Positions 895-12,828 of a stretch of 26,737 nt of DNA are shown here, piece by piece. The DNA is from a virus. The notes beneath the pieces are model-generated. The model made no database searches. It saw only the letters and a program-made list of their open reading frames with translations, and had not been told where the DNA came from. How positions within the stretch are numbered: position 1 is the first letter of the stretch; the number at the start of each line of letters is the position of its first letter. The stretch is taken from positions 1 to 26,737 of IMG/VR virus record IMGVR_UViG_3300049215_000770; one strand, written 5' to 3'. Position numbers and translations under genes: made by a program.

Positions 895-1107
895 TTAACT
901 GCCGGAAGGCACGTCGTCGGCATTGCCCCACTTGCTGTCGATGAAGTGCCCAAGCTTGTCGTGTACGAAGGGCAGGCTGGTGAGGCCGATCAGCGTGGTG
1001 CCCACTGCGCCGGCGTCGAAGGTGTGGAACACGAAGAGGTTGTAAATCGCCATGCCGGTGAAGGCGATGGTCACCAGCATGAGCAGGACGAAAAAGGCGC
1101 GGATCAC
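895..1107 (-). CDS. Small membrane protein, holin candidate 1
   Basis: A 70-residue protein starting at GTG 1105-1107, in a GTGA overlap with the previous stop. The longer open frame upstream is a shadow. Residues 2-28 (IRAFFVLLMLVTIAFTGMAI, then YNLFVF) form one clear membrane segment. Residues 35-50 (AGAVGTTLIGLTSLPF) may be a second, shorter one, and the polar tail (KLGHFIDSKWGNADD) would face the cytoplasm. Size and place in the late lysis region fit a holin or antiholin, but no family is certain. The stop is in an AT-rich patch (890-898). Confidence 0.6.
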   Translation of the reverse strand: MIRAFFVLLMLVTIAFTGMAIYNLFVFHTFDAGAVGTTLIGLTSLPFVHDKLGHFIDSKWGNADDVPSGS

Positions 1108-1457
1108 AGGTTCGATGGCTGGATGGTGACGATGCCGGAAGCCACCACGCGCGGGATGCCGGAGGAATCGGTCAGGCGTGCCTCGTGGTAGAAAAAGCCG
1201 GGAAGGTTCTTCGTATCGGCCGAGTTGAGCTGCACGTAGAAAATGCCAGCGGTGGGCGGGCTTCCCACGGTGATGCCGCCGATGCTTCCGCTGTCCTTGG
1301 TAATGAGCGGCGTGTTGATGGCATAATTGCCCATTGCCCACTGCAGGAGCTGCACGCCGGTCAGGTCGTAAGGGTTGCCGTTCTGGTCAACGACGGGGAA
1401 TTCCAGAGTTACGCCGTCGCCCGCGAAGATCTGAAAGTTCTGCTGAAGGGCCGCCAT
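1104..1457 (-). CDS. Small beta-sandwich protein (BppU N-terminal-like)
   Basis: A 117-residue protein starting on the base after the 760-residue protein's TAG. The opening MAALQQNFQIFAGDGVTLEF and then DQNGNPYDLTGVQLLQWAM has the pattern of the BppU-type N-terminal beta-sandwich used in baseplate and fibre proteins (a D-x-x-G-x-P-x-D-L-T-G-x turn). The rest (GIFYVQLNSADTKNLPGFFY, HEARLTDSSGIPRVVASG) continues the strands to a complete single domain. It is likely a partner or accessory of the large repeat protein, judged from tight coupling. The stop overlaps the next start as GTGA. Confidence 0.75.
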   Translation of the reverse strand: MAALQQNFQIFAGDGVTLEFPVVDQNGNPYDLTGVQLLQWAMGNYAINTPLITKDSGSIGGITVGSPPTAGIFYVQLNSADTKNLPGFFYHEARLTDSSGIPRVVASGIVTIQPSNL

Positions 1458-3740
1458 CTACTGTTCTTTCACGGTTGCCGAAAGCACGATCAAGCCGGTT
1501 CGCCCCGATAATACAATAACGGGATCTATTTCACCACTTAATTGAATCGGGCCGGTCTCCCCGGCCAGGATGACGGGCGGCAGCGGAACGAGGGCGCTGG
1601 TTCGTATCAGCCACGGCGGCGGGTTGGTAATGGCAGGTGCTGGGATGGTCGATGCTTGCGATGGGCGGGGTAGCCATGCGAGCATGTCGCCGCCCTTTCC
1701 TACAGCGGCTGGCACCATCCAGGGCGGCGGATTCGCGATTTCTTTGGGCTTGGAGTAGATGACATTCCTGTTGGATAACCAGGCCAGGTGATCGCCACCA
1801 TATCCTACCCGCTGGGGCAGTATCCATGGGAGCGTGTTCGGTGTGGTGGCGGCTGGCGAGCTGAGTGCCGTGGTTTTGGCGAGCCAGGGGAGGTAATCGG
1901 TGATCGTGATGGGCGCAGCTGGTGGAACCCAGGCAAGAATGTTCTGTGGCGTAGATGGCTGTGCTTGCGGTCGCTGCCGCTGCATGAACCACGCAAGGTG
2001 ATCGCCGCCGTAGCCGACGGTTTGGGGCGGAACCCAGAGAAGCTGATTGCGGGTATCCTGGGGAGGCGGCGTCAGCGCGCTGGTCTTGGCCAGCCATGTG
2101 AGGTAATCGACCACTGCCTGAACCGCTGCCGGGGGAACCCAGGCGAGCAGGTTTGCCACCTGTTGAGGCTGGGGTTGGGCCGGGGGCCTGGGCACCAGCC
2201 ACGAAAGGTGGTCGCCGCCGTAACCGATCTTCTGTGGTGGAACCCAGAGCAGGGAATTTGACACCTCCTGGCGCGGCTCGACGCGGTTCCTGAAAGGAAG
2301 CCACGCAAGATGATCGCCGCCATAGCCGACTCGCGTGAGTCCTGCATGCCAGAATACGGGGTTCTTGACCGGCTCGCTATCGCGGTAGATGCGGTTGACG
2401 GGGCATGGCAGCCAGCCCATGAAGTCACCGCCGTAGCCACCCTTGGCACTGTCCGGGTTAAGCGGCAGGCGGTTGACGACCGCCAGGGCCTGCGGGTAGG
2501 CCGCCGCGATCAGCGGAGTTTGCCAGCCGAGGTTATCAGCCGGGGCACCTGAAGGGGGCGTGAATTCGACCGCCTCGTAGCCGATCTTCGTGGTGTTCGC
2601 ATTCGAGGTGTTCAGGTTGCCGGTAATGGTGGATGCATTGGTCAAGGTTTCCCCGGGCATCGTATTAGGCGCATTGGTGCCGCTGCTATAACTCCACCCG
2701 GTATAATTCACGAGACCGTAGGTGGTGCTGATCGAGGGGCTGAGTGATGCCGTGTTGCTGGTGACGCTTACAAGAGAAATGCTGCCGCGCTGCGGAGCGC
2801 TGTTCAAGACACCTGAGACGAATTCCAGCACGGTGTAAGTGATGGTGCGGCTGCCGCTGGCGGTGCCTCCCCTCGATAGTGTCACCTGCGTGGCGCTGGT
2901 GAGCTGCAGCCAGTATTCGAAAGTAGAAAATGCCGTCGCGCTCGTGTTGATGCCATTATAGATCAGCACCGTGTTTGCGGTGACGACCGAGGTTATGGTA
3001 TCCGTGTCACTGGTGGTGGTGGTGGAAAGCGTCTTCGAGCGCGCCTGCACGCTGTTCACCACGCTGCTGTTGAAATCCACCACCGCGTATCCCACCGTCA
3101 AAATGAACGTGGTGGCGGTATTCCGCGTCGCCGTCACGGTGGTGGAATTCGTCAGAACAAGGGTAGGGAAAAAGTTGGCCGAGGTGGTGCTCGCCGTGGG
3201 TCCGCTGAAGCCAAGATAAAAAACAACAGCCAGCGAACCGACGGCATTAGACAATGTGGCCGTGCCGGTGGCGCTGCTGCTGGCAACGCTGATCGTTCCG
3301 GCCTGCACGCCGTTTGCAGTCAGAGCCGATGACTGGAATTCCACCACCGTGCCGTAAACGGTGCTGGAGGTGGTCGCCGAGCTGCCGCGCGTAGCGGTGA
3401 CCTGATTGGTGCCGGTGAGGGCAACACGCAGGCATACTTCATTGAAGCGGCCGGTGCCGGAAGCATCGTCAGTAGTTTGGTTCGCCCACCATATGACGGC
3501 GTTGGCAACGGTGACGCTTGTGGGGAGCGTGTAAGTGTTCGAGGTGGACCCGGAACCCACCGTGATGGTGAATTCCTGCACGGTTTTCACCGCGTTGATT
3601 CCCATCCATGCCGGCAGGATCGGCTTGATATTATCGTTTGCCGGGATCAGCAGCGGCAGGATGGTGGCGCTGCGTGGCCGGAAGTCTTCGTGCCCCGGCT
3701 TCGGGACAGGTTTAAGGAGAGCGCATTTCATGTGCCGCAC
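1458..3740 (-). CDS. Large repeat protein with 35-residue two-Trp repeats
   Basis: A 760-residue protein, the largest in the window, starting at GTG 3740 (AGGGTG just upstream) or ATG 3731. After a short Pro-rich lead, residues 50-395 are four tandem beta-type units of about 86 residues, each ending in a VVEF-like motif (F135, F223, F307, F393). Residues 435-712 are a different array: Trp recurs with a near-exact period of 35 residues (W464, 499, 534, 569, 604, 639, 674, 710) and a second Trp series is interleaved (480, 514, 549, 584, 619, 654, 689). Motifs alternate between VGYGGDHLAWL and NxLxWVPPQ. The end (722-760) has three LSGxxxxIVL-like strands. It is probably a fibre or virion-surface protein, but this is unproven; no enzyme motif or signal peptide. 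Confidence 0.8.
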   Translation of the reverse strand: MRHMKCALLKPVPKPGHEDFRPRSATILPLLIPANDNIKPILPAWMGINAVKTVQEFTITVGSGSTSNTYTLPTSVTVANAVIWWANQTTDDASGTGRFNEVCLRVALTGTNQVTATRGSSATTSSTVYGTVVEFQSSALTANGVQAGTISVASSSATGTATLSNAVGSLAVVFYLGFSGPTASTTSANFFPTLVLTNSTTVTATRNTATTFILTVGYAVVDFNSSVVNSVQARSKTLSTTTTSDTDTITSVVTANTVLIYNGINTSATAFSTFEYWLQLTSATQVTLSRGGTASGSRTITYTVLEFVSGVLNSAPQRGSISLVSVTSNTASLSPSISTTYGLVNYTGWSYSSGTNAPNTMPGETLTNASTITGNLNTSNANTTKIGYEAVEFTPPSGAPADNLGWQTPLIAAAYPQALAVVNRLPLNPDSAKGGYGGDFMGWLPCPVNRIYRDSEPVKNPVFWHAGLTRVGYGGDHLAWLPFRNRVEPRQEVSNSLLWVPPQKIGYGGDHLSWLVPRPPAQPQPQQVANLLAWVPPAAVQAVVDYLTWLAKTSALTPPPQDTRNQLLWVPPQTVGYGGDHLAWFMQRQRPQAQPSTPQNILAWVPPAAPITITDYLPWLAKTTALSSPAATTPNTLPWILPQRVGYGGDHLAWLSNRNVIYSKPKEIANPPPWMVPAAVGKGGDMLAWLPRPSQASTIPAPAITNPPPWLIRTSALVPLPPVILAGETGPIQLSGEIDPVIVLSGRTGLIVLSATVKEQ
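1605..2438 (-). repeat. Coding tandem repeat, 105-base period
   Basis: DNA encoding residues 435-712 of the 760-residue protein. On the plus strand the block AAGGTGATCGCCGCCGTAGC and close variants recur around 1787, 1997, 2207, 2306 and 2417, about 105 or 210 bases apart. The repeats keep the reading frame throughout. Confidence 0.85.
2556..3593 (-). repeat. Four tandem ~86-residue beta-domain repeats
   Basis: Residues 50-395 of the 760-residue protein. Conserved points are a TVTATR or QVTLSR-like strand in the second half of the first three units, and a closing (V/A)V(E/D)F or VLEF at residues 132-135, 220-223, 304-307 and 390-393. The repeats are diverged, with no long identical DNA, so the array looks old. 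Confidence 0.7.
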
Positions 3741-3793: not shown

Positions 3794-3836
3794 TGCTTCA
3801 TGGCGGCCCCTGAAGCAGGTGGTCATATTAACCACC
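3794..3836. other. Two adjacent hairpins between genes
   Basis: One inverted repeat (GGTGGT with ACCACC, seven-base loop, 3818-3836) overlaps the stop of the 157-residue gene. The next (TGCTTCA with TGAAGCA, ten-base loop, 3794-3817) abuts it. No T-run follows on the minus strand, so these are not standard terminators. They may slow polymerase, protect a 3' end or mark a processing site. Confidence 0.45.
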
Positions 3837-4301
3837 CAGTTCTTCGACGATCACCTTGCCGCTCATGTGGCAGGTGCCCGAAACGGTGGAAAGCAGCTCG
3901 TACACGAAGGATTCCGAAGGGCCGACGATCGGCGGATCGGGAAAGGTGTAATCCTCACCCTGGAAGTTGTGGAACGCGCCCTCGTGGACGGTGATGGCGG
4001 TGCCGTTGGTCGTCGCCTTGCTGGTGTTGTTGGCAAGAGCGGTAAAGCTCGCGGCCGCATCGCCGGGATCGAGCTTGGCCGGCGTCGGTGTGCTGCCGCC
4101 GGAGCCATCGGTCACGGTCACCGGAAGATAGCGCGCACGGGTTTCAATGCCTTGCGCGGTCTGCAGCGTGGTGTCGCCGCAAGAACCGAGCTTCACGCCG
4201 ATAATGCGGAGAATTTTTCCGGCTGCGCCCTTGATCTGGAACAGGTCCTGAGCGGCTGAGATGGAAACGTTTTCAAAGGTGACAACATAACGACGGGGCA
4301 T
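3828..4301 (-). CDS. Beta-rich virion-type protein, function unknown
   Basis: A 157-residue protein with AAGGA seven bases before the ATG. It starts RRYVVTFENVSISAAQDLFQ, continues IRIIGVKLG-like strands, has a conserved-looking TDGSGGSTPTPAKLDPGDAA loop (about residues 64-83), and ends KVIVEELGG. I have an impression of similar small proteins recurring next to fibres and lysis genes of Gram-negative phages, where they are annotated as hypothetical; this is memory, not a search. The neutral beta-sandwich look suggests a virion-surface or fibre-associated role. A hairpin pair follows its stop. Confidence 0.75.
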   Translation of the reverse strand: MPRRYVVTFENVSISAAQDLFQIKGAAGKILRIIGVKLGSCGDTTLQTAQGIETRARYLPVTVTDGSGGSTPTPAKLDPGDAAASFTALANNTSKATTNGTAITVHEGAFHNFQGEDYTFPDPPIVGPSESFVYELLSTVSGTCHMSGKVIVEELGG

Positions 4302-5134: not shown

Positions 5135-6472
5135 CTAGACGTACTGGCCGCCGCTTGCCGTGCTGCCCGCCGCGTTACCCGGCAGATAGGATGCCCCGCC
5201 GCCCCCGGTATCAATCACGCCGTTTTTCGTGGCGATGTAGCGCGTGCCGGTGGCGCTCCCCGAGAACGTCACGTTGGCGATTTCAAGGATGGACGGCCCG
5301 CTGACGGCCGCGTAATTGGCAAATGCCGGGGTGCCCGTGAGGGTGACCGTGATGCCGCCGGCCAGGTTGACAATGCCTCCGGGCGTGATCTGGATGTGCG
5401 CCCCGCCGGTGTCGCTGCCGCTGATGGTATAGCTGTTGTTGACGTTGATGATGCCTTCGCCGCAGTTGATCTGGTTGTAGAGCGACCCGGCGATGCTGCC
5501 GTAATTCATGTTGCCGGTCACGTTGATCGTGCCGCCCAGCACCGCGCTCAGGCCATGGCCTCCCGTGGCGGTGGTGAGCTTGAAGCCCTGCACGTTGATC
5601 GTGGAACCCGCGCCCGTGGCGGTGATGCAGTTCGCGCTCGTGGTGCTGATGATGCAGTTCGCCGGGGTGGTGGTGTCGCCATTCAGCGTCACGGTGCCCC
5701 AGCCCACCCACGGGCCGCTTACGGTGACGGCGCCGGTGTAGGTGCCGTCCGCCACGTTGATGGTGACGTTGAAGCCGTTCAGGTCGTAATTGCTCGCCAC
5801 CACGTTGATGGCGCGCTGGATGGTGAGAAACGGCGCGCCCGAGGTCAGGCCGCTGTTGCTGTCGCTGCCGGTGGTGGCCACGTACAGGTTGAGGTTGGTG
5901 TTCAGCCGCACGCGGCGCGCCGCGTCGATCAGAAACAGGTGGCTGCCGTCCCACAGCAGGGTGTAATCGTCGTTGAACAGCAGCTCGCCGCCCTGCAGCA
6001 GTTGCGGCCCGAACGGCCCGTCGATGTAGAGGTGCTGGGCGCCCACGCTGTCAATCGCCACGGTGGTGTCAGTGCTGTTGTTGAAGTTAGAGGTAAAGCG
6101 GAACGTCTCCCCGGCCGTGAGCGCACTGAGCGATTGCCCGGTGGTAAGCGTCTGTGCGTTGGCGGAACCGCCTGAACCTCCGCACCAGTAGGTAACGTCG
6201 GCCTTCAGGAAGGATTGCAAAGCGGCCGAGATTTCGTTCACGAGGTTCGTCATGTTGCCGTCGTCGGGCACGCTGATGCCCTGCGCCACCATCCAGTTGG
6301 CCAGGCCGGATGCCATGAACGTGGACTGCCGGAGGATCTTGTTGAAATAATTGGACGGCACGATGCCGGATGCCATGCCGGTCCCGAGCGTGCTTTCAGC
6401 CGCATAGGTGGCCTGTGAAACTACGTTTGCGCCGCCTGCGGTGGCATAGGGCAGAATGTCTGTGGTTGCCAT
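5135..6472 (-). CDS. Tail fibre / tailspike with beta-helix domain
   Basis: A 445-residue receptor-contact candidate. Residues 1-90 are the baseplate-binding part (SNYFNKILRQSTFMASGLAN and NMTNLVNEISAALQSFL). Residues 90-190 resemble fibre linker domains. From about 195 a right-handed beta-helix begins with the hallmark LYVATTGSDSNSGLTSGAPF and LTIQRAINVVASNYDLNGFN, followed by regular coils of Thr/Gly/Ile/Val (about 225-415). The last 30 residues (GVIDTGGGGASYLPGN, ending in TASGGQYV) are the common fibre C-terminal motif. No Asp/Glu pair characteristic of a depolymerase can be assigned by eye. The helix domain is the most host-range relevant part of the window. Confidence 0.88.
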   Translation of the reverse strand: MATTDILPYATAGGANVVSQATYAAESTLGTGMASGIVPSNYFNKILRQSTFMASGLANWMVAQGISVPDDGNMTNLVNEISAALQSFLKADVTYWCGGSGGSANAQTLTTGQSLSALTAGETFRFTSNFNNSTDTTVAIDSVGAQHLYIDGPFGPQLLQGGELLFNDDYTLLWDGSHLFLIDAARRVRLNTNLNLYVATTGSDSNSGLTSGAPFLTIQRAINVVASNYDLNGFNVTINVADGTYTGAVTVSGPWVGWGTVTLNGDTTTPANCIISTTSANCITATGAGSTINVQGFKLTTATGGHGLSAVLGGTINVTGNMNYGSIAGSLYNQINCGEGIINVNNSYTISGSDTGGAHIQITPGGIVNLAGGITVTLTGTPAFANYAAVSGPSILEIANVTFSGSATGTRYIATKNGVIDTGGGGASYLPGNAAGSTASGGQYV

Positions 6473-10682: not shown

Positions 10683-11290
10683 GTGCTGGCCGTGGCAGGT
10701 GGGGTGTAAAGGGTGCCGGGCAGCAGCGACTGCGCGCCCTGGTTGGTGACCGCGGCGTTGTTCTGGGGGCTGCTCATGTTGGCCGCGCTGGGGAAGGTGG
10801 CGATCTGGGTGGTGGCGGTCAGCACCTGCCTGCACACCGCGGTGCACATAAGCGCGTGCTCGGTCCTCTGGTCGGTGGTGACGTGCAGGGAGCGTATCAG
10901 CATGTTGCTGTAGGTCCGCTTGCCGGTAATGATCGAAAACGGCACGCGGCTGGCCTGCAGGGTGAGGAGCTGCTGGTAGACCTGCGAGGCGTAATTGAAG
11001 GGAGCGGTGGTGCCGCCGAAGTCCAGCGCCCCGGTTGTGAAAAGCGAAACCGCTTCTACCAGGTCGGTGATGACCGACTGCAGGCCGCTGTTGCTCCAGC
11101 CCGCGCGCACGATCACTTCGGCGGGTTGCTTGTAGGCGTGGTCGCTGATCGCCGCGCCCTGCTCCACCGGGTGCTGGGTGATGACCAGCTCGTCGAAGTG
11201 GCTCTCCTCCAGCGTGCACTGGATGGCGATCGGGCCGATGCTCCGCGCAGGGTTGAAGATGGCCGGGATGACGGTATCCAGCAGGCTCAT
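10679..11290 (-). CDS. Dit-like baseplate/tail protein
   Basis: A 203-residue protein whose start overlaps the tape measure stop by four bases. Residues 20-65 (PIAIQCTLEESHFDELVITQ and EQGAAISDHAYKQPAEVIVR) have the Dit-like pattern: a beta-strand target, then hydrophobic strands with E-G-x-x-I-S-D-H. The middle (110-150) with FSIITGKRTYSNMLIRSLHV is the second typical block. Such proteins form the ring at the tail tip that joins tube to hub. The last 40 residues are Asn/Gln/Ala/Thr-rich and perhaps flexible. Confidence 0.8.
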   Translation of the reverse strand: MSLLDTVIPAIFNPARSIGPIAIQCTLEESHFDELVITQHPVEQGAAISDHAYKQPAEVIVRAGWSNSGLQSVITDLVEAVSLFTTGALDFGGTTAPFNYASQVYQQLLTLQASRVPFSIITGKRTYSNMLIRSLHVTTDQRTEHALMCTAVCRQVLTATTQIATFPSAANMSSPQNNAAVTNQGAQSLLPGTLYTPPATAST

Positions 11291-12828
11291 GTGGCCGCCC
11301 CCACGATGTTGCGCATCAGCTCGGAGTTCACGCGGTGCTGCGCGCCTGCCACGGCGTCGGCGGTGGCCTGCGGATCATCGGACCCGTGCACGTGGATTTC
11401 CGTGTGCTGGCTGACGCTGGGGGCGGCCGCAAGGTTGGCGGCCATCCTGCCGCGCAGGGCGGATTCGTTCGCCAGGTTGGCCGGGCGCTCGTACAGCCGG
11501 GCGAACGCATCGGCCGCTGCAAAGGGTGTGACGGTGCCCCGGAGGGCATTGCCCGCCGCGCGTTCCCCGCCCTGCGTCAATTCGTACTGCACGAAGGCCA
11601 GCTGCTCGGCAAGGGTAGATTGCCTGATGTCGTGCCCGGCCCACTGGCGGAAAGCCGCCTGCCGGTCGGGGTGCCACTGGGCTACGCCCAGCGCCTGCCC
11701 GTTGTCGCCGGCCGCGGAAGGATTCAGGCCGCTTTCGCGCTGCAGGTTGGCCACAATGCCCGCCGCCTGCGCGTTGCTCCAGCCCATGCCCCTGAAATAA
11801 GCCATGGGGTCGATGCTGCCGCTGCCCGCCGCAGCCGCCCCGCCGCCCCCAACCATGCCGCGCAGCCATGTGCCCAGCTGGTTGCCCACGCCGCTGTCGC
11901 CGCCGGTCAGCGAACCCAGCGCCATGGACTTCTTCAGCTCCTCCCAATGCTGCAGTACAAGGGTAAAGACGCCGACGAGTGCCACGGCCCAGCCGCCGAT
12001 TGCCACGAGGCTGCCGCCCACCGCTGCCGTGACCGCCCCCAGCGCGGCTACGAGCCCCACGGTGAGCGTGGTGCCGAGGCCCCCGGTCTGCTTGTCCAGC
12101 CTGCCCACCCAGTCCACCGCCGCCTGCGTCCAGCCAAGGAACCGTTCGGCCGCCGGGTTCAGGTCCGTGCTCATCCGGGTGGCCAGCGCCGTGAAGCTAT
12201 TCTCCAGCCCGCGCACGTTCTGCATGAAATCGTGGCCCCTGGCCGCGGCGTCTTCGGCATTCAGGCCGTATTCCGCCAGCTTGGCGTTGTACTGCTCCAT
12301 GAACCGGGTGAGCGACCCGTCGCGCATGGCAAGGAAGGTTTTCTCGTCGATGCCGAGCATGTTGGCGTATTTCTCGCCAAGGTAGACCGGAAGGCGCTGG
12401 AAGGTGGCGCTCAGGTCCTGCATCGTCTTCACGGTGTCGCCCAGGTGTTCTGGAGAAACACCTAGAACGCGGGTGAGGAAGCCGCCGGCGCCGGGCTGCG
12501 TGCGCATGAAGCGGGCGAGGTTCTCCATGCTGGCGCGGGCATCGTCGGAGGTGCCGCCCAGCTGGCTGACGGCGAAGACGAAAGCCCCGATCTCCTCGGC
12601 GGAAGCCCCCGTGCGCTTGCTGGCGAAATAGAGCCGGTCCATGCTCTCGGAAACGCGGGCGACGAAGGCTTCCACGGCTGCGGCCGCGGCGGTGGCTGAA
12701 GCGCCGAACACGAAGGCGTTGCGCGTGGCCTTGCCTAGCGTGGAGTCGAACTTTTTGAAGCTGGATTCGTCTATCCTGAATCCGAGCTGCGCCAGGAATT
12801 CCTTGATGACTTCAGCGTTTCCCGCCAT
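11287..12828 (-). CDS. Tape measure protein with C-terminal lysozyme-like domain
   Basis: A 513-residue protein. The N-terminal 250 residues are helical (AEVIKEFLAQLGFRIDESSF at the start, the typical tape measure opening). Residues 253-293 form long hydrophobic segments (TTLTVGLVAALGAVTAAVGG, then LVAIGGWAVALVGVFTLVL) that could enter the inner membrane at infection. A Gly/Ala linker (326-338) leads to a phage tail lysozyme-like domain (about 341-455): GWSNAQAAGIVANLQRESGL with E365 as candidate catalytic acid, then ALGVAQWHPDRQAAFRQWAG. The tail (476-500) has an IHVHGSDDPQATADAV motif. Length sets tail length, and 513 residues is short for a myophage. GGGAGGA touches the ATG. Confidence 0.9.
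   Translation of the reverse strand: MAGNAEVIKEFLAQLGFRIDESSFKKFDSTLGKATRNAFVFGASATAAAAAVEAFVARVSESMDRLYFASKRTGASAEEIGAFVFAVSQLGGTSDDARASMENLARFMRTQPGAGGFLTRVLGVSPEHLGDTVKTMQDLSATFQRLPVYLGEKYANMLGIDEKTFLAMRDGSLTRFMEQYNAKLAEYGLNAEDAAARGHDFMQNVRGLENSFTALATRMSTDLNPAAERFLGWTQAAVDWVGRLDKQTGGLGTTLTVGLVAALGAVTAAVGGSLVAIGGWAVALVGVFTLVLQHWEELKKSMALGSLTGGDSGVGNQLGTWLRGMVGGGGAAAAGSGSIDPMAYFRGMGWSNAQAAGIVANLQRESGLNPSAAGDNGQALGVAQWHPDRQAAFRQWAGHDIRQSTLAEQLAFVQYELTQGGERAAGNALRGTVTPFAAADAFARLYERPANLANESALRGRMAANLAAAPSVSQHTEIHVHGSDDPQATADAVAGAQHRVNSELMRNIVGAAT

Follow-up and report, generated by a model that had tools for sequence, protein, structure and literature searches.

A tryptophan repeat array of a contractile-tailed phage, older and less isolated than first thought, belongs to an undescribed family inside a recurring phage module

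In phage tape measure proteins, repeats have been described that are marked by tryptophan or phenylalanine at regular steps, with periods of 11 or 18 residues and a variable copy number, and these Trp/Phe marks were proposed to anchor auxiliary proteins (PMC3271669). Other phage proteins without an assigned function, such as Tweety gp54 and bbp36 of a Bordetella phage, possess a variable core of 4- to 8-residue or 24-bp repeats that are still alike in DNA, and neutral expansion has been suggested for some of these variable repeats, e.g. those of Tweety gp54 (PMC2884959). R-pyocin fibres are known for a receptor-binding domain with a lectin fold (PMC6363177), and gp77 of podophage GP4 is a fibre-tail adaptor (PF23148).

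Here, we compare these systems with a 760-aa protein encoded on a 26,737-base IMG/VR virus contig (the window, i.e. the whole stretch of DNA analysed). The window stems from a soil-type contractile-tailed phage and encodes a terminase, a portal, a capsid, a DUF3383 tail sheath, a KPP10-like structural protein, an E217-like baseplate hub, a tape-measure-like gene with a tail lysozyme domain (11290-12828) and a tail fibre gene (5138-6472, matching phrog_11303) that is distinct from the gene of the 760-aa protein. Its sheath shares 50-54% identity with the sheaths of Burkholderia phages Magia and BgManors32, which belong to the named phages closest to this one; in Magia, the genes of the corresponding slot carry other functional annotations, and the BgManors32 'tail protein' has no Trp array. 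The 760-aa gene lies late, past the lysozyme gene, in the late tail/lysis region. We rejected the protein as a tape measure protein itself: it is not encoded between the tail tube and baseplate genes and has no W/F every 11 or 18 residues.

The gene (1458..3740, minus strand, as are all features of the protein given here) starts with GTG and ends on the TAG at 1458-1460. An N-terminal tail for which no match was found (residues 1-44, 3609..3740) is followed by four copies of a domain of ~85 residues, together covering residues 45-396: the putative lectin-like beta-sandwich domains D1 (residues 45-138, 3327..3608), D2 (139-225, 3066..3326), D3 (226-310, 2811..3065) and D4 (310-396, 2553..2813), of which D3 was assigned by an AlphaFold2 model and Foldseek and the others as internal repeats. 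A lone first motif copy, DNLGW (W406, 2523..2537), precedes the Trp array (residues 435-714, 1599..2438), which is composed of eight units of 34-36 residues with 16 Trp motifs at 20/15 spacing. The C-terminal tail (residues 715-760, 1461..1598) consists of short beta-like repeats (VILAG..IQLSG..IVLSG..IVLSA) and resembles in style the C-termini of the repeat proteins of L080, L154 and L085, three loci discussed below.

The array is a real feature, far beyond chance. A strict alternating Trp chain (a step of 20, then one of 10-16) joins 12 Trp; when the same residues were shuffled 20,000 times, no chain exceeded 6. The three-Trp pattern, written as DNA, gave 4 matches against 0.00 expected. An earlier note, made from the letters of the window alone, had given the Trp positions exactly (443, 464, 480, 499, 514, 534, 549, 569, 584, 604, 619, 639, 654, 674, 689 and 710), and its interval of 1605-2438 agrees with the array, the complete units of which span 1599-2438. 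It had distinguished two Trp series with separate motifs A and B; both series are present, but once aligned they form a single motif, [DN]x(L/I/V/M/F/P)xW, in 17 copies from W406 to W710, W406 being the one copy upstream of the array. The near-exact spacing it described holds strictly for units 3-8, where 20 and 15 alternate, whereas deviations of 1-2 residues occur in the initial units and in the final gap (gaps 21, 16, 19, 15, 20, 15, 20, 15, 20, 15, 20, 15, 20, 15, 21). Proline makes up 15% of the array.

From an apparent similarity of the units in DNA, the same note had concluded to recent expansion or ongoing homogenisation. This similarity proved weak (unit-to-unit DNA identity 25-64%), Tandem Repeats Finder detected no DNA-level tandem repeat in the array, and a search for known RNA elements came back empty there. 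The same codon is used at 51 of the 151 residues that are identical between units, compared to 53.7-55.8 expected from codon permutation within the gene and 70.6 from the codon usage of the gene set. Since codon sharing is no higher than chance, synonymous sites between units are saturated, which rules out recent expansion or homogenisation. The DNA resemblance of the units is a mere by-product of protein conservation; they are old and maintained at the protein level, with all motifs and most of the spacing retained.

As the earlier note had surmised, the repeat is unrecognised: no family in Pfam, PHROGs, NCBIfam or the PDB sequences matched it, the 760-aa protein as a whole had no credible match in these collections either, and two-unit array profiles matched no PDB sequence. 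A Pfam CcmH match (E 0.01, under its cut-off) covers array residues 543-596 with their alternating motifs and was dismissed, as was a match in Roseobacter phage DSS3P8 (E 0.3), which falls outside annotated genes. No relative of the protein was present in phage or plasmid records, nor did whole-protein and repeat searches of IMG/VR, GTDB genomes, phages and plasmids return a close one. An exact-spacing [DN]xLxW scan yielded low-complexity or frame artefacts only, and the profiles A5 and A8 gave chance-level matches in 398 genomes of one phylum.

More distant arrays were found through spacing and through the neighbouring 157-aa gene (3828..4301, minus strand), which represents an undescribed family defined by its IMG/VR matches and serves as a marker of the module described below. 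As family criterion we used a unit with [DEN]xLxW and a second W ~20 residues on. One of the 55 loci reached through the 157-aa gene, L080, encodes a protein of 530 aa whose N-terminus is rich in Gly and whose Trp chain has 11 members (steps of 20, then 11-16), the Trp chains in the family counting 16, 11 and 8. A DNA spacing scan of IMG/VR gave at least 120 loci, which were sorted by the Trp-chain test; among the matches listed, the sole genuine array besides L080 was L154, with 12 units in 481 aa (e.g. DNLAWQKVKRSVDYSFDEAGRTARWIP), and the 157-family gene accompanies only the two true arrays. In L154, 18 bases separate the array gene from the 157-family gene upstream of it (E 3e-47). The array gene also runs into the start of a 119-aa gene that in size and placement is like a 117-aa gene of the window, the two small proteins giving no BLASTP alignment. 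L090 carries a version of two units (111 aa) immediately after its 157-family gene; the spacing of this version is looser, and it matched L154 at E 1e-6 in one single comparison. Copy number thus varies among relatives, as the earlier note had thought possible: 2 units in L090, 6 in L080, 8 in the window and 12 in L154, the three relatives being uncultured phages. A 157-family gene is found upstream in all four array loci, adjacent in the window, L154 and L090 and separated by two small genes in L080. N-terminal domains and unit counts (2-12) vary independently of the array; L154 and L090 are without N-terminal binding domain.

The window and L154 align with 37.0 bits, compared to a mean of 17.9 and a maximum of 28.1 in 1000 trials in which L154 was shuffled with Trp fixed; the window against L080 alone is marginal (0.8% of shuffles). 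Left-out profiles, for which the alignment columns had been fixed with all members present, place each omitted member at the top of 11,335 ORFs, behind only the members from which they were built, with E-values of 2.8e-5 for the window (next unrelated ORF 0.34), 8.5e-8 for L154 (L090 also omitted), 1.7e-8 for L080 and 1.7e-6 for L090. Models from L154 and L090 alone did not recover the window. Judged from these alignments, common descent of the four arrays is likely, convergence of the motif keeping a small residual probability, and the family appears to be an undescribed repeat cassette in one gene slot.

The 157-aa family comprises 59 IMG/VR matches in two scans, or ~50 distinct loci, and has no match in Pfam, PHROG or PDB. 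Its members bear SAAQD and GSGGS motifs and are found in very different phages, beside capsid genes in L154 and in podovirus L148. In 49 distinct loci, we examined neighbouring genes for internal repeats of short period, with locally shuffled sequence as the reference. Such repeats occur in 18 of 42 genes at position +1, 5 of 35 at +2 and 4 of 331 at all other offsets (+1 against the rest, 9/366: p 9e-14, which is optimistic since the loci are interrelated), compared to 2 of 306 control ORFs from DUF2612 loci. The position effect at +1 is unmistakable. The repeat units at +1 are mutually unrelated, e.g. LTLAGSAEGLTVVPG in L118 and HPSRNLRLRDxTFR in L104, and the family also accompanies repeat proteins without Trp. 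In L081 (9022-11043), a 673-aa protein with 21-residue LGDVTQ repeats is flanked by a 157-family gene and a 121-aa adaptor-like gene, in the layout of the window with unrelated repeats. Same-slot repeat proteins of L117 (9355-9978), L120 (8467-9156) and L121 (8457-9269) terminate in short Trp runs with ~11-residue steps (e.g. ETWTPATKQPETWIPE), a second kind of Trp spacing, and in L098 (9441-10547) a collagen-like GxDGxD protein stands right behind another repeat protein in one operon. A short basic-aromatic N-terminus is common to 14 otherwise unrelated repeat proteins near 157-family genes (L104, L106, L119, L120, L121, L126 and others; examples MGVFRRRWHYEPRRK and MGVYRRVWDYRPRRR): R/K/W/Y/F account for 39% of residues 2-26 in these 14 proteins, compared to 19% in other ORFs (p 6e-9). 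This terminus may act as a docking tag.

On the other side of the repeat protein, the start codon of the 117-aa gene (1104..1457, minus strand) abuts the TAG of the 760-aa gene (TAGATG). This presumed adaptor is BppU-N-like: in tblastn it matched 'phage BppU N-terminal domain' proteins of HATV-2 (E 4e-6) and HCTV-16 (E 2e-4) and an Alicyclobacillus phage (E 6e-11). A small protein of similar look is often encoded behind the repeat protein in 157-family loci; in L085 it is a Pfam Gp77 'fiber-tail adaptor' (E 4.5e-22), and in L078, L106 and L111 the gene matches phrog_17896. Repeat-rich proteins are also paired with a Gp77 or BppU-N gene in Microcystis phage Mwe-JY26 and HCTV-16. As HCTV-16 is a haloarchaeal tailed virus that pairs its repeat-rich protein with a BppU-N gene (L145, 3352-5315, gp43-gp44), the arrangement extends from bacterial to archaeal viruses.

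The AlphaFold2 model of D3 is a six-stranded sandwich (pLDDT 87, pTM 0.77). Its best structural neighbours by Foldseek were the receptor-binding domain of the Pam1 tailspike, R-pyocin fibres, Helix agglutinins and the AP22 fibre gp53, and the best entries among viral models were tail fibres and H-type lectins. These matches are individually weak (best PDB E 0.06; one viral match only below 0.001), yet in the model comparison the neighbours clearly agree in kind despite modest E-values. For the six-stranded fold of H-type lectins, Foldseek gave a probability of 0.87-0.97 at E 0.2-0.3, and the H-type lectin sequence family of Pfam did not match the N-terminal domains.

We see about an even chance that the contractile-tailed phage uses the 760-aa protein as an accessory adhesin or fibre with an exchangeable repeat stalk, distinct from the tail fibre of 5138-6472. 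This is suggested by the confident D3 model with its matches to receptor-binding domains of phage fibres and tailspikes and to H-type lectins, by the adaptor-like gene directly downstream with its TAGATG coupling and by Gp77 in L085. D1-D4 would contact glycans and the Trp array would act as shaft, built like a ladder from short identical elements, with every [DN]xLxW filling an equivalent structural position as anchor, so that the number of units would set the reach. The 117-aa protein would grip the beta-like C-terminal tail and mount the fibre on the virion, with the 157-aa protein as a putative co-assembled partner. An extension or spacing element would follow from the unrelated repeats swapped in one slot, the differing N-terminal domains and the adjacent adaptor-like gene; unrelated short-period repeats in the same slot are easier to reconcile with a role in length or spacing than with one specific ligand, and motif and spacing were kept despite saturated synonymous sites. 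The analysis shows the array with its spacing, its maintenance by selection on the protein, the related arrays, the order of the genes and the lectin-like model; where the protein sits in the virion, its role as a shaft, its polarity and its oligomeric state are what we infer, and a trimer of short beta elements would be a guess. Against this reading stand the weakness of the single fold matches of the N-terminal domain and the members that have no N-terminal binding domain (L154, L090). Since the module belongs to the late tail/lysis region in the window but borders capsid genes in L154, the attachment site is uncertain. The wider proposal, a new folded class of ~35-residue Trp-ladder repeat (20/15) building the fibre shaft within a widespread module of 157-aa protein, exchangeable repeat-shaft protein and BppU/Gp77-like adaptor across contractile and non-contractile phages, is tentative, with clearly less than an even chance.

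The regular solenoid that the earlier note had considered is a candidate structure of the array. AlphaFold2 found no regular secondary structure for two units (monomer, shallow six-row alignment; pLDDT 59.5, pTM 0.13), which makes a Pro-rich, largely disordered tether the main rival: each [DN]xLxW would be a linear motif docking one copy of a repeated partner. The 15% Pro counts against a shaft as it also fits such a tether, the motif occurs 17 times at fixed steps, and the W/F anchors of tape measure repeats (PMC3271669) provide a precedent. However, no partner was identified, the strict spacing exceeds the needs of a tether, and the 157-aa protein does not look like a dedicated motif reader since its family also stands beside repeat proteins without Trp. 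We regard docking as unlikely, though worth weighing. The other suggestion of the earlier note was a series of aromatic binding sites, perhaps for glycans or choline-like ligands. Regular exposed aromatics would suit a Trp-based array binding glycan, peptidoglycan or choline-like ligands, and lectin-like domains are present in the same protein; yet the array matched none of the choline-binding, cell-wall-binding or other carbohydrate-binding repeat families in Pfam, NCBIfam and PDB, leaving that claim unsupported, and in other phages arrays without aromatics fill the same slot, so that we hold this reading improbable. Sugar-binding potential would, from the D3 model, sit in the four N-terminal lectin-like domains and not in the array. 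That the repeats expanded neutrally in a dispensable linker without a specific role would fit the highly variable repeat content between phages, but is very improbable and already disfavoured, with all 17 motifs preserved and the spacing retained against a background of randomised synonymous codons, and with a related motif in four divergent phages.

The Trp array is thus older and less isolated than first thought, an undescribed family inside a recurring phage module. Besides defining an unannotated repeat family, the analysis provides a small marker gene, that of the 157-aa family, which predicts an adjacent repeat-built surface protein, so that the module offers a handle on phage proteins usually left 'hypothetical'. 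Arrays of 2, 6, 8 and 12 units form a natural set for testing how phages set fibre length.

Compared to the described systems, the array shares with W/F-marked tape measure repeats (PMC3271669) the regular-step Trp and the variable copy number, but it is Pro-rich with steps of 15 and 20 instead of periods of 11 or 18, and the window phage has its separate tape-measure-like gene (11290-12828). Like Tweety gp54 and bbp36 (PMC2884959), the protein has no assigned function and a repeat core that varies, but their short repeats are still alike in DNA, unlike the units of the window. As for Gp77 (PF23148) and the BppU N-terminal domain, a small, presumably Ig-like gene abuts the repeat protein gene; this neighbour is Gp77 in L085 and resembles BppU_N proteins in the window, although Pfam Gp77 did not match the 117-aa gene. 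Finally, the N-terminal domain may share the fold of R-type pyocin fibre tips and H-type lectins (TM to query 0.54-0.61) at ~10-15% identity, but in the window these domains occur as four tandem copies and are N-terminal rather than C-terminal.
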